Origin: Parazoarcus communis
GTDB lineage: Bacteria > Pseudomonadota > Gammaproteobacteria > Burkholderiales > Rhodocyclaceae
Assembly (NCBI RefSeq): GCF_003111665.1
Contig: NZ_CP022188.1
Span: 2,294,001-2,358,000, forward strand
Direction: 5' to 3'
Length of the DNA: 64,000 nt
The position numbers were made by a program, and so were the translations under genes. Positions 40,170 through 46,763 of this stretch are shown piece after piece. The notes under the pieces are model-generated. The model was not told the origin of the DNA. It searched no databases and saw only the letters and a program-made list of their open reading frames with translations. Position 1 is the first letter of the stretch. Each line of letters starts with the position of its first letter.

Positions 40170-40313
40170 TTAGTCGCCGAGCTCTGCACTGTTGACGCCC
40201 AGGTCCAAGAGCCAGATCTCGATCGCGGTGACGACCGCAAGCAACTTGGAGGAGAACTCGCCCGCTGTAGTTTGGCTAAAGGCGGGCAGGGCTTCCGGGG
40301 CGTAGTTCAACAT
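40170..40313 (-). CDS. 47-residue partner of the nucleotidyltransferase, unknown family
   Basis: A short gene missed by a length-limited ORF search. ATG 40313 lies 7 nt inside the 3' end of the nucleotidyltransferase and the frame ends in TAA at 40170, encoding a 47-residue helical protein: MLNYAPEALPAF, TAGEFSSKLLAVVTAIEIW, LLDLGVNSAELGD. The position is where a HEPN toxin would sit, but 47 residues is too short for a HEPN domain (about 130). It could be a mini-toxin, a regulator or a truncated HEPN. I recognise no family. Confidence 0.5.
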   Translation of the reverse strand: MLNYAPEALPAFSQTTAGEFSSKLLAVVTAIEIWLLDLGVNSAELGD

Positions 40314-40609
40314 TGAAGTCGTTTCCCGGTTTGCCTGGCAGCCTGATGAATGGGCATGTAACCGTTACCGTCATCAATAACGACATCGATTTTCTGGTCG
40401 CCAAGTTGCCACTGCAGTTCGGCTGCAAATCGCGCTGCCATCGCGGACTTGTGTTCGAGCGGATGGTCGACCACGATCATCAGGTCGAGGTCGCCTCCGC
40501 GACGTGCGTCGTCAATCCTCGACCCGAACAGCCAGACGCTCGCTCCTGTTCCGAACTGCTGGTGGGCGGTTTGCAGGATCACCCGGGTTTCCAATGAAGA
40601 AATGCGCAT
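40307..40609 (-). CDS. MNT-like nucleotidyltransferase
   Basis: A 100-residue protein: ASVWLFGSRIDDARRGGDLDLMIVV holds the GS motif (G29, S30) and the two metal Asp (D40, D42); QKIDVVIDD holds the third acid. Short even for an MNT domain. It is a separate nucleotidyltransferase from the one at 34411, not a close copy. It precedes a 47-residue gene with a 7-nt overlap, so the two are co-translated. Confidence 0.85.
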   Translation of the reverse strand: MRISSLETRVILQTAHQQFGTGASVWLFGSRIDDARRGGDLDLMIVVDHPLEHKSAMAARFAAELQWQLGDQKIDVVIDDGNGYMPIHQAARQTGKRLQC

Positions 40610-40662: not shown

Positions 40663-42088
<1,426 letters not shown>

Positions 42089-42141
42089 GTTCGCTCTCCT
42101 TGTCTTGATGTTTGCCGGTGAATCCTCCGGCTTCAAAACAA

Positions 42142-42169
42142 ATATAGGGTCGAGGCGAACAGTTTCAAG
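42142..42169 (-). promoter_or_regulatory. Sigma-32-type heat-shock promoter for hsp20
   Basis: On the minus strand CTTGAA (42169-42164) and CCCTATAT (42149-42142) are separated by 14 nt, close to the sigma-32 consensus CTTGAA-N11-16-CCCCATNT. It is 54 nt before the hsp20 start, so heat-shock induction is likely. Confidence 0.8.
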
Positions 42170-42238
42170 TCCCGTGTCGGCCGTGATCGAAAGCGATCCG
42201 GATCAATGGGATGGCAAACACCTGGGCCGCTCGCGGGT

Positions 42239-42673
42239 TCAGGCGGCTTCCGGGCCTGAGAGGTCGACGAAGGTCCAGAAGGCAATCTGTTCGCCGGCCC
42301 AGAAGGCGGCGCTTTCGCGCAGGATGGAGAGCAGGGTTTCGAAGTCTTCGGTGTGACGCTCGCGAAAACTGCCGGCGTGCTCCAGCAACAGGACATGGCC
42401 CTTTGCGGGGCGCCAGCCGAGGTCGCCGAGGCAGTCGGCAAGGGCGTCCCAGTTGTGACCGAACCAGCGCGGAAAATCGAGCACAGTGGCGATGCGGGTC
42501 AGCAGCGCGGCCTTGTCTTCGCAGTCACCCAGATTGATGCGTGCGCAATTGAAACCGATCTGCGATGCGGCGGCGGCAAGGCGTTCGGCGCTGCCCGGTG
42601 GCAAGGGGCGCACGCCGGCGCGGGAGAGGTCTGCGAGGAGTGTGTTCAGGGGCCGGGCGGTGGACGTGCTCAT
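42239..42673 (-). CDS. Barstar-family ribonuclease inhibitor
   Basis: A 144-residue barstar-like protein. Core motifs FPRWFGHNWDALADCLGDLGW and VLLLEHAGSF with acidic loop residues; DLSRAGVRPL and FNCARINLGDCEDKAALLTRI form the preceding strands. It inhibits barnase-type ribonucleases by plugging the active site; the target is almost certainly the ribonuclease at 42670. The ATG overlaps the ribonuclease stop (ATGA). It is the cytoplasmic immunity protein. Confidence 0.9.
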   Translation of the reverse strand: MSTSTARPLNTLLADLSRAGVRPLPPGSAERLAAAASQIGFNCARINLGDCEDKAALLTRIATVLDFPRWFGHNWDALADCLGDLGWRPAKGHVLLLEHAGSFRERHTEDFETLLSILRESAAFWAGEQIAFWTFVDLSGPEAA

Positions 42674-43044
42674 GGGCGGGGCTCGATGCGGCGGAAGCTG
42701 CGGTAATGGTCTGCGGTGTAGTAGAACACTTCGGGTGGCTTGCCGCCGGTCACAATGCGTCTGGCGCCCCGGTCTCGCGCGCCCGGAGTGGGAACGGTGT
42801 ATTCACGATAGTAGCCGCGGGGGCGATCGGGCAGCAGGCGCTCGCGGTTCTGGAAGACCGTGCCGTCCTTGCGGTAGGGGAAGGGGCCGCCATTCTGGAT
42901 GAGACTCAGGGTGGTGATGGCTTCGGGCGGGAGCCCCGACGCGTCGGTGTTCGACCCGGTAGGCGTGCAGGCTGCGAGCAGAAACAGCAGTGGCAGGATG
43001 CGCGCGGCACGCTGCAGTGTGCTCAGGAATGGGGTAAGCGTCAT
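42670..43044 (-). CDS. Exported barnase/RNase Sa-type guanyl ribonuclease
   Basis: A 124-residue protein. Residues 11-26 form a lipoprotein-type signal (LPLLFLLAAC), with Cys26 as the likely lipidation site. The mature part is a microbial RNase N1/T1/Sa domain: NGGPFPYRKDGTVFQNRE, catalytic Glu81 (REYTVPTPG), Arg95/96 (DRGARRIVTGG) and His113 (TADHYRSF). Spacing of the three catalytic residues matches RNase Sa. It overlaps both neighbours by 4 nt, so a TPR/response regulator gene, the ribonuclease and barstar are translated together. Whether it is a secreted toxin or a periplasmic nutrient enzyme is unknown. Confidence 0.88.
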   Translation of the reverse strand: MTLTPFLSTLQRAARILPLLFLLAACTPTGSNTDASGLPPEAITTLSLIQNGGPFPYRKDGTVFQNRERLLPDRPRGYYREYTVPTPGARDRGARRIVTGGKPPEVFYYTADHYRSFRRIEPRP

Positions 43045-44717
43045 TTGCGGGCGTTGGCTCTGCGGAAAAGGGCCGCCTTGTCGGCGCTGTCCATGACCCG
43101 TTCCGGCCGGATGCCATAGCGCTTGATCAGTCCGTGCATGAACTCGGTGATCGCAGACAGGCGGTTGCTGGTGGGCGCGAGCTTGCGTGCGCGCTCGATC
43201 AGTGCCCGCGCCTGCCTGGCGAAGGCCTCGTTCCAGCCCCGGTGCTCGATATGGCGCAGCAGGGCGAGCGCTGCGTTGAACAGCACATGCGGGTTGCCGG
43301 GCATCTTGCGTGCCGCGTTCATCATCTCTGCCACAGCACCGTCGAAGTCACCGGCGTGGGCCTTCTCTGCTCCGACCGAAATCAACTCCTTCACTTCGGT
43401 CTGAATGCGTTGCTCGATTTCCTTCGACAGCTTCTCAAGCCCTCGGGATTTCATCAGCGTGCGGGTGGTTTCCACCGTGCGCTCGTCGGCCGAGGTGCGC
43501 AGGATATTCATCACCATCTCACCGCCTGCATCGCCGAGCTGATGATCGAAGCAGGCCTTGATGAGCTCCTGCTTCAGGCCGACCGACATGTTTGCCGCAC
43601 CGGGGGCGGCCTTGGCCGCGCCGAGCAGGGCTTCACGGGCGCGTGCCGCGTCGCCGGTGTGGCTGTGCAGCATGGCGGTCGACAATGCCTTGCACAGATC
43701 CGCCTTGGGTTGTCCGCCCATGCTGCGGTCGAGGTCGGTGATGGTTGCGCTCGCCGCGTCCACCCGGTTCAGCGCAAGCTGCGCCTGCACGAGGCGGACG
43801 TGGTCTTCGGGGTCGCGAAAGTCCGAGTACTTGCCCTTGCGCACGACCTCCGCCAGGGCCTCTTCGGCTGCTGCAGGGTCGTTGACCGCCAGCGCCAGTG
43901 CACCGACGTGACGCAAACGGGTTACCCGGTAGGGCGAGTGCTCGCTTGCGGTGCGCAGTACGTCGAGCGCAGCTTCCGGGCGGCCGGTATCTTCGCGTAC
44001 CCGCGCCAGCAGGTCATACGCGGCAATGAAGCGATCGTTCTCGGCGATGAGTTCGGTCAGGATCCGGTCCGCTTCCTCGTATTGCTTGCTCAGGAACAGC
44101 GTGCGCGCCAGACCGAGGCGCGCCCAGGGAATGTACTTTCCGCTGAGAATCTCGCGATAGATGGCCTCGGCCTCGGCCATCTGGCCCGAGGACACATGCA
44201 GCTCAGCCTGCAGGCGCATGAAGTCGACAATGTGCTGCGGATAGCTGTCGACGGCCTCCTTGCAATACGCGATCGCGTCCGGCGTATCGCCGATGGCCAT
44301 CAGGCGCCACGCCGGGAGGAAGGCGTCACGTTTGTCGAGCGCACGCATCAGCCGTGCGCGCAGGGCCTCGGCTGCAAGCGGCTTGAGGATGTAGTCGTTG
44401 GGCGACAGCTCGGCAGTGCTCACCACCCGCTCGTAGTTGCGTTCGCCCGTGATCATGACGAACAGCGTATCGAGCGGAATGATCTCGTGGGTGCGCAGGT
44501 CTTCCAGCAGGTGCTGCCCGTCCTGGCCGTCCCCCAGGTTGTATTCGCACAGGATCAGGTCGTAGCGATGCTCGCGCAGGCGCCGCACCGCCATGCCTGC
44601 TGAAACCGCGAACTGCACCTCGGCAAGGCCGATCGAGGACAGCATGGTCCTGAGCTGCGCACGCATGGTGGGCTGGCTTTCGATGACGAGTACGCTGAGT
44701 TGATCCAGTGAGGCCAT
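43041..44717 (-). CDS. Response-regulator receiver/TPR protein with atypical phosphoacceptor site
   Basis: A 558-residue protein. Residues 1-130 form a receiver domain: LSVLVIESQPTMRAQLRTM (Glu13-Ser14 where two acids are usual), YDLILCEYNLGDG (Glu58 at the phosphoacceptor position), VMITGERN (Thr90) and DYILKPL (Lys112). Residues 145-530 are tetratricopeptide-like helices (AEAIYREILSGKYIPWARLGLARTL and similar). The loss of Asp suggests it is not phosphorylated in the normal way or mimics the active state. Its stop overlaps the ribonuclease start by ATGA, so it is co-translated with the ribonuclease and barstar. Confidence 0.88.
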   Translation of the reverse strand: MASLDQLSVLVIESQPTMRAQLRTMLSSIGLAEVQFAVSAGMAVRRLREHRYDLILCEYNLGDGQDGQHLLEDLRTHEIIPLDTLFVMITGERNYERVVSTAELSPNDYILKPLAAEALRARLMRALDKRDAFLPAWRLMAIGDTPDAIAYCKEAVDSYPQHIVDFMRLQAELHVSSGQMAEAEAIYREILSGKYIPWARLGLARTLFLSKQYEEADRILTELIAENDRFIAAYDLLARVREDTGRPEAALDVLRTASEHSPYRVTRLRHVGALALAVNDPAAAEEALAEVVRKGKYSDFRDPEDHVRLVQAQLALNRVDAASATITDLDRSMGGQPKADLCKALSTAMLHSHTGDAARAREALLGAAKAAPGAANMSVGLKQELIKACFDHQLGDAGGEMVMNILRTSADERTVETTRTLMKSRGLEKLSKEIEQRIQTEVKELISVGAEKAHAGDFDGAVAEMMNAARKMPGNPHVLFNAALALLRHIEHRGWNEAFARQARALIERARKLAPTSNRLSAITEFMHGLIKRYGIRPERVMDSADKAALFRRANARK

Positions 44718-44872
44718 GAATGGCGGGGCGTGTTGCGCCCCGGGTCCGTTGATATGCGCTTGGAAATCTTACGGCATTCCGGCGCAAAAGCTTGAGCGAA
44801 TTGCGTCGGAACTGACCTTGATCAGACCGTAGCGCCCGTCCCGACGGTGGCGACGATGTGCGTCGTGCGTCT

Positions 44873-46693
<1,821 letters not shown>

Positions 46694-46763
46694 CGGGAGG
46701 CATTTTAGCTGCAAGGGGGGGCGTAGTGCGGCGTCAGTTTGGCGCCTGCAGCGGGCATCCGGC

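Follow-up and report, generated by a model that had tools for sequence, protein, structure and literature searches.

Simple gene pairs of barnase and barstar are widespread and have been described as possibly incipient toxin-immunity units, in the accessible part of a 2012 survey (PMC3482391). Receiver domains that lack the phosphorylatable aspartate form a second described group. In aspartate-less receivers, the residue is replaced most often by Glu (26%; PMC4395418). An Asp-to-Glu exchange can mimic phosphorylation, but in the cases covered by the accessible parts of PMC4395418 and PMC12632262 it sometimes activates and sometimes does not, and the latter, a 2025 review, terms the switching of bacterial pseudo-receivers a mystery. 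A third group consists of response regulators with TPRs, encoded beside a small histidine kinase; no paper was found on this two-component pair in the open-licence PMC literature. Searching the open-licence PMC literature with phrases such as "TPR response regulator" yielded no paper either, and within the available part of PMC3333781, TPR is named in figure legends only.

Here, a 64-kb stretch of DNA from Parazoarcus communis (the window) is analysed, in which a guanyl ribonuclease gene and a barstar gene follow a gene for a receiver-TPR protein, designated RR-TPR. The RNase-inhibitor pair itself is of a known kind. No paper was found in the open-licence PMC literature on the gene order RR-TPR-RNase-barstar, and the steady linkage of the pair with an altered regulator seems undescribed in the relatives of Azoarcus, Thauera and Zoogloea. 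The reading towards which we lean is that exported RNase and immunity protein form an autonomous unit, placed in one operon with a kinase-free pseudo-response regulator that has in part a role of its own. The locus provides a well-sampled natural case of a response regulator turned pseudo-receiver, in which the Asp-to-Glu exchange, the absence of the kinase gene and the new partner genes can be followed on one tree; a clade of this tree has since lost the new partner and reverted from Glu to Asp. Why a Gram-negative cell should maintain a putatively envelope-anchored guanyl RNase with a cytosolic immunity protein beside aspS and argB is a further question posed by the locus.

Gene organisation in the window

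The three minus-strand reading frames were recovered with the positions, lengths and two ATGA overlaps that had been claimed from the sequence without database searches (the sequence-only reading; Table 1). A promoter scan of positions 41500-45200 located no sigma-70-like site 5' of RR-TPR and one before hsp20; between barstar and hsp20, no terminator-like site was found. The hsp20 gene probably lies outside the RR-TPR-RNase-barstar unit.

Table 1. Genes and gene overlaps of the locus, with positions in the 64-kb window.
Feature	Position	Strand	Basis
RR-TPR, degenerate receiver (~7-129, Glu58 at the phospho-Asp site) and TPR superhelix, 558 aa	43041-44717	-	ORF, Pfam, AlphaFold2
Guanyl ribonuclease of RNase Sa type, 124 aa, with catalytic E/R/R/H; predicted to be a lipoprotein (LAAC)	42670-43044	-	ORF, Pfam, alignment
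Barstar-family inhibitor, 144 aa, ~40 residues ahead of the Pfam domain	42239-42673	-	ORF, Pfam, alignment
ATGA overlap RR-TPR/RNase, 4 nt	43041-43044	-	Sequence; start at -4 in 9/54 linked loci
ATGA overlap RNase/barstar, 4 nt	42670-42673	-	Sequence; -4 start available in 67/91 RNase loci
hsp20, conserved downstream neighbour, own promoter-like site	41669-42136	-	Domain search, gene clustering, promoter scan
argB, conserved gene on the downstream side, marker of the ancestral site	40663-41565	-	Gene clustering across loci
recQ, upstream neighbour in the window genus; aspS there in many other linked loci	44873-46714	-	Pfam, NCBIfam

Some minor elements were noted around these genes. The site 5' of hsp20 (42142-42169, minus strand), flagged as sigma-70-like by the promoter scan, is very near to the sigma-32 heat-shock consensus. 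A terminator-like hairpin of 11 pairs lies 3' of hsp20 (41619-41644, minus strand). Beside argB, a small nucleotidyltransferase is encoded (40307-40609, minus strand) with sub-cut-off similarity to the MntA antitoxin (E 5e-5). A regulatory RNA was considered and dropped, no Rfam match reaching the gathering score in the window.

Conservation of the gene order

The RNase was found in 70 and RR-TPR (E <= 1e-40) in 77 of 200 genomes of the order, and in this sample the two stood side by side, as judged by eye, only in the window genome and in G067, both of the same family. Sampling of that family (199 genomes) gave the RNase in 159, RR-TPR in 148 and barstar in 167 genomes. In all genome searches for RR-TPR seven candidates were scored per genome, on which its absences rest; the window genome contained one RR-TPR at 1e-40, with 7 of 67 candidates scored.

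Among the matches listed, 62 close orthologues of RR-TPR (at least 45% identity) were present, 52 of which lie directly upstream of an RNase gene on the same strand (assessed by eye), an arrangement called linked below. The other ten were unlinked (G250, G301, G367, G391, G269, G270, G212, G247, G289 and G350). A scan of named genomes covered the best 80 of 133 relatives, which overlap with the family sample in organisms and come from another collection. Here, a locus counted as linked if an RNase lay no more than 700 bases from the end of the match: 63 loci were linked, 12 were without RNase in the fetched flank and 5 ended within 700 bases. Barstar was present in all 63 linked loci of these best 80 of 133 relatives. 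Among the genera with linked loci are Azoarcus, Parazoarcus, Thauera, Aromatoleum, Zoogloea, Denitromonas, Pseudothauera and Cognatazoarcus. The three-gene order, for which the sequence-only reading had proposed a search in relatives, is thus kept across several genera, in 52/62 close orthologues and 63/80 named loci, and is not chance.

Genomic site of the RNase pair

A set of 100 hand-chosen loci was fetched, and their genes were called and clustered together with those of the window. The set comprised all 51 linked orthologue loci besides the window, the loci of G244 and G296, 10 RR-TPR loci without linked RNase, 20 of the 105 family genomes with unlinked RNase and 17 RNase loci taken from the sample of the order. 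Neighbouring genes that matched a window gene were named after it, and the others were named by eye from their sequences. The order usual in the family is pilB-pilC-pilD ... fmdB-DUF502-aspS-RNase-barstar-nudB-hsp20-argB, with the aspS cluster in 64/101 loci, and the pair sits in a housekeeping neighbourhood (aspS, nudB, hsp20, argB). In the linked branch, RR-TPR is located between aspS and the RNase gene; in the window genus, recQ is the upstream gene in 5/5 loci and RR-TPR, RNase and barstar are kept together.

Other arrangements were also seen. The RNase gene follows aspS directly in L188 and L190, with no RR-TPR match at 1e-40 in either genome. In G212 and G270, RR-TPR comes after aspS and a gene resembling prolyl oligopeptidase, and the RNase pair is found elsewhere, beside argB. 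Among the 17 RNase loci of other families in the order, the pair comes after aspS in three (L209, L213, L224) and in several others after, for example, a gene resembling malic enzyme or quinone oxidoreductase. Barstar adjoins the RNase gene in 91/91 fetched RNase loci. Because of this constancy and of the varied sites without RR-TPR, the RNase-barstar pair is regarded as older than the RR-TPR link; it is a unit of its own, usually without linked RR-TPR.

These arrangements bear on the possibility that RR-TPR is a mere neighbour, which landed between aspS and the RNase gene in an ancestor and shares a transcript with the pair, with no functional tie. Consistent with this are the 105 of 159 RNase-bearing family genomes in which, among the RR-TPR matches listed, no linked RR-TPR was present (54 had one), the location of RR-TPR away from the pair in G212, G270 and G269, and the retention of the pair without an RR-TPR match at 1e-40 in L188 (G294), L189 (G245) and L190 (G387), with seven candidates scored per genome. 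Against it stands an order that is kept across many genera and with differing upstream neighbours, such as recQ or the second RR-TPR gene of two tandem loci (L179, L180). On this evidence, and on that of the clade without the pair treated below, we rate a mere neighbourhood as rather unlikely, while still deserving serious attention.

Spacing and transcription

Relative to the RR-TPR stop, 53 of the 54 linked loci have an in-frame RNase start (ATG, GTG or TTG) between -4 and +116; the 54th is L180, for which the distance was taken from the wrong one of two tandem RR-TPR copies. In a few loci (such as L148, L154, L166, L174 and L175) the RNase frame is open still further upstream. Given this spacing on one strand and the conserved order, RR-TPR, RNase and barstar are likely to be on one transcript.

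A start at -4 of the first junction was found in nine linked loci, namely all five of the window genus, L154, L175, L176 and L179. As it is confined to these nine, the ATGA at this junction is interpreted as a local elaboration of an operon-like order that is itself conserved. The lack of overlap in relatives had been named beforehand as a point against a regulated system; the -4 start is indeed absent in the rest of the 54 loci and is retained in these 9/54.

The receiver domain and the structure of RR-TPR

RR-TPR matched the Pfam family Response_reg with an E-value of 7.3e-16 (58.8 bits, cut-off 30.2) in addition to TPRs; no DNA-binding domain was detected by Pfam. At the phosphorylation site the receiver has Glu58 and in place of the acidic pair Glu13-Ser14, with Thr90 and Lys112 retained. 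By the Pfam match, the structural model and Glu58 it is a receiver fold without phospho-Asp, that is a pseudo-receiver, and it lacks the phospho-Asp with acidic pair and the adjacent cognate histidine kinase of a canonical response regulator. In the AlphaFold2 model (mean pLDDT 88.5), a receiver of alternating strands and helices is followed by a long superhelix of helical repeats. A fold search with this model ranked TPR superhelices first, for example the scaffold of O-GlcNAc transferase, and among the best 50 matches no receiver-TPR structure was found by title. The predicted structure and its TPR-scaffold matches fit a protein-binding scaffold.

The domain resembles the aspartate-less receivers and pseudo-receivers in the accessible text of PMC4395418 and PMC12632262 in its replacement of phospho-Asp by Glu, the loss of the second acidic residue and the retention of Thr and Lys. 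It differs from them in its output, a long TPR superhelix, the term "TPR" being absent from the accessible main text of both papers.

The residue at the phosphosite was followed on a tree of 89 proteins, made with a quick method and midpoint-rooted, with long branches flagged; L227, a short sequence, and three duplicates were omitted from it. The 63 rows of close relatives fall into a single group (support 100). The 54 linked rows have Glu (50), Ser (2), Asn (1) or Asp (1, L166), and the 9 close unlinked rows Glu (6) or Asp (3). The 26 distant paralogues, which are best-scoring loci (among the 30 best) and not a random sample, have Asp in 25 and Glu in one (L059). In the named set (best 80 of 133 relatives), Glu was found in 62 of the 63 linked rows and Asn in one, Asp in 12/12 rows without RNase, and Asp in four and Glu in one of the five cut rows. 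An alignment (A1) of the window protein with 61 of 120 listed homologues was also made.

Histidine kinase genes beside related regulators

The distant paralogues (L036-L061) are homologous to RR-TPR over the full length with 30-38% identity. Among these loci, 17 of 26 (among the 30 best) carry a small histidine kinase gene directly 3' on the same strand, in 13 of the 17 with the start at -4. HATPase_c was found in 4/4 kinases checked and the His box, by pattern, in 14/17. These kinases have a length of ~220-240 aa and, in the four checked by Pfam, no sensor domain. Whereas the paralogues (among the 30 best loci) keep Asp in 25/26 and have the kinase next to the regulator in 17/26, the window has the RNase-barstar pair there; the slot 3' of the regulator thus holds a kinase in many sister genes and RNase with barstar in the window.

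No kinase of the sister family was found in 184 other loci, with the window and all linked loci included (tblastn, seven queries, E 1e-4), some of these loci holding only the RNase pair. One sister-family kinase searched against the window genome gave nothing better than 1.1e-8. A cognate kinase as conserved upstream gene was also considered and rejected: the upstream genes viewed were aspS, prolyl oligopeptidase and nitroreductase, all named by eye, and recQ, identified by Pfam and NCBIfam.

As the phosphosite of the outgroup is Asp, we infer that the kinase was lost rather than gained. Its absence is not peculiar to the linked branch, since 9/26 distant paralogues are without an adjacent kinase as well. 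In view of the missing phospho-Asp and of a sister-family kinase gene not being beside RR-TPR, control of RR-TPR by phosphorylation appears unlikely.

A clade with RR-TPR and without the pair

Together, the 12 named loci without RNase and four loci cut by contig ends make up a single clade (16 rows), which stands next to the window genus. In the family sample, matches to both RNase and barstar are absent in 4/4 genomes of this group. Relatives carrying the TPR gene without the RNase pair had been put forward in advance as evidence against a regulated system; they occur in this single clade (12/80 named loci), and linkage is kept in 63/80. The genomes of the clade (L181-L183 and the 16 named rows) are small and have kept RR-TPR. 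Isolate names suggest termite guts as the presumable source.

All 15 rows examined have Asp at the phosphosite and Thr for Lys112; in place of the first acidic residue, 13 have Ala and 2 have Val. The change from Glu to Asp with pair loss is one event on the tree and is given without statistics, since it occurs in a single clade; the linked L166 also has Asp.

For RR-TPR of this clade, dN/dS ranged from 0.09 to 0.16 in the six closest pairs, with a median of 0.156 over 92 pairs (range 0.092-0.355); among the remaining rows, the six closest pairs gave 0.09-0.15. Eight RR-TPR rows with a stop in the aligned stretch were omitted from this set, and the median of the rest group (0.399) was set aside, as it mixes distant, saturated pairs. 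With ratios comparable to those of the rest, RR-TPR works as a gene without the RNase pair and, judged by dN/dS, is under purifying selection in this clade, which again speaks for a mere neighbour. An acceleration of RR-TPR after pair loss is not claimed. ArgB of the group has diverged more as well (84-90% in 4 genomes, compared to 93-100% in 13), so the faster change of RR-TPR says nothing special.

The RNase and its inhibitor

The ribonuclease matched the Pfam family Ribonuclease (PF00545) with an E-value of 2.5e-24 (86.1 bits, curated cut-off 24) and the inhibitor Barstar (PF01337) with 3.6e-29 (101 bits, curated cut-off 23.4). RNase Sa3 (1mgr) is the nearest solved relative of the enzyme (E 1.4e-30). 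Chains named barnase matched with E-values of 0.026 and weaker and the best chain outside the Sa group with 0.016. Because barnase-named chains match far worse than 1mgr, the enzyme is RNase Sa-like. The RNase Sa type given by the sequence-only reading was therefore correct, and its label "barnase/barstar" is refined to RNase Sa-like enzyme and barstar.

The catalytic Glu, Arg, Arg and His (Glu54, Arg65, Arg69 and His85 in RNase Sa numbering) are present in the window enzyme and in 90/91 aligned RNase loci; three catalytic residues had been claimed before. In barstar, the equivalent of Asp35 was found in 90/91 loci and that of Asp39 in 83/91, with Glu in the other 8; the window protein has both Asp. 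By Pfam cut-offs, adjacency, catalytic residues and Asp35/Asp39, the window pair belongs to the N1/T1 RNases with barstar. With RNase Sa and the barnase-barstar pair it shares the RNase fold family, the catalytic residues, a putative export-type N-terminus and the adjacent barstar with both key Asp. It differs in being a predicted lipoprotein in this branch, in the ~40 extra N-terminal residues of barstar and in the conserved upstream RR-TPR.

Read from the sequence, the N-terminus of the window RNase is a hydrophobic stretch ending in LAAC, with Thr at +2. LAAC is read as a lipobox, and the enzyme is therefore predicted to be a lipoprotein; by the lipoprotein sorting rule, Thr at +2 would direct it to the outer membrane. 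The lipobox pattern occurred in 24/54 linked, 6/20 unlinked and 1/17 other RNases, counts that include some apparently wrong matches and misses, as judged by eye. Since a plain signal peptide is seen in many of the other RNases, lipid anchoring seems to be characteristic of the branch that surrounds the window. A plain secreted nutritional enzyme had been named beforehand as a further point against a regulated system; on this point, the putative export-type N-terminus and the location among aspS, nudB, hsp20 and argB were observed.

A hydrophobic N-terminus with lipobox would argue against action in the own cytosol, as expected of a type II toxin-antitoxin system, and by Pfam the inhibitor matches Barstar only, with no DNA-binding autoregulating domain. 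Both type II toxin-antitoxin function and anti-phage defence were rejected on the putative export-type N-terminus and on the absence of PADLOC matches at 0.01. The locus also differs from polymorphic toxin systems, as the RNase has one domain in 124 aa and there is no large toxin with trafficking domains.

A regulated toxin or stress system had been suggested by the sequence-only reading, in which RR-TPR would sense a signal and release the RNase on its own cell. In favour of such a system are the conserved order and the coupling of a signalling-type protein to a toxin-like enzyme that has its inhibitor next to it. This suggestion is not supported in view of the export-type N-terminus with its lipobox, the receiver without phospho-Asp and acidic pair, the absence of a sister-family kinase gene beside RR-TPR, the separation of RR-TPR and RNase pair in both directions and the lack of a PADLOC match for any of the three proteins; we now consider it highly improbable.

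Slightly less credit still is given to a function in contact or surface competition with neighbours, in which a lipid-anchored RNase with cytosolic immunity would act as a simple toxin-immunity pair. The lipobox in the branch of the window would suit this function, as would the gene order, toxin gene followed by immunity gene, shared with the simple pairs that are proposed as an incipient toxin-immunity order in the accessible part of the 2012 survey (PMC3482391). Compared with those pairs, as described in that part of the survey, the locus has a conserved site beside housekeeping genes and a single-domain RNase of 124 aa without a delivery domain or module, both of which count against competition.

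Proposed role of RR-TPR

In the reading we favour, of an autonomous pair that shares its operon with a pseudo-response regulator, the RNase would be exported, in the branch of the window probably lipid-anchored in the envelope, and would cut RNA after G. Cytosolic barstar would neutralise RNase not yet exported. RR-TPR would descend from a two-component family with a small histidine kinase gene often directly 3'. With no adjacent kinase and Glu for phospho-Asp, it is best read as phosphorylation-independent and is probably a kinase-free pseudo-receiver scaffold, which may reside in a constitutive state. As a TPR scaffold co-produced with the RNase pair, it would have a cellular role of its own, and its effect on the RNase would be at most accessory and lineage-specific.

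Direct control of the RNase by RR-TPR is possible. The linkage is kept although recQ replaces aspS upstream, which hints at a tie tighter than accessory. In the furthest extension of this idea, RR-TPR would have escaped its kinase, exchanged Asp for Glu, gained the RNase pair in the place of the kinase and become a standing controller of the making, export or release of the RNase. We regard this course of events as doubtful; if true, it would represent a new type of RNase-immunity operon.

Two irregular forms of the RR-TPR gene were observed. In L227 (G350), a genome without a listed RNase match, RR-TPR has an early in-frame stop, due to decay or to a sequencing error. In G244 and G296 (L179 and L180), two tandem, diverged RR-TPR genes precede RNase-barstar, and the aligned copy has Ser at the phosphosite.
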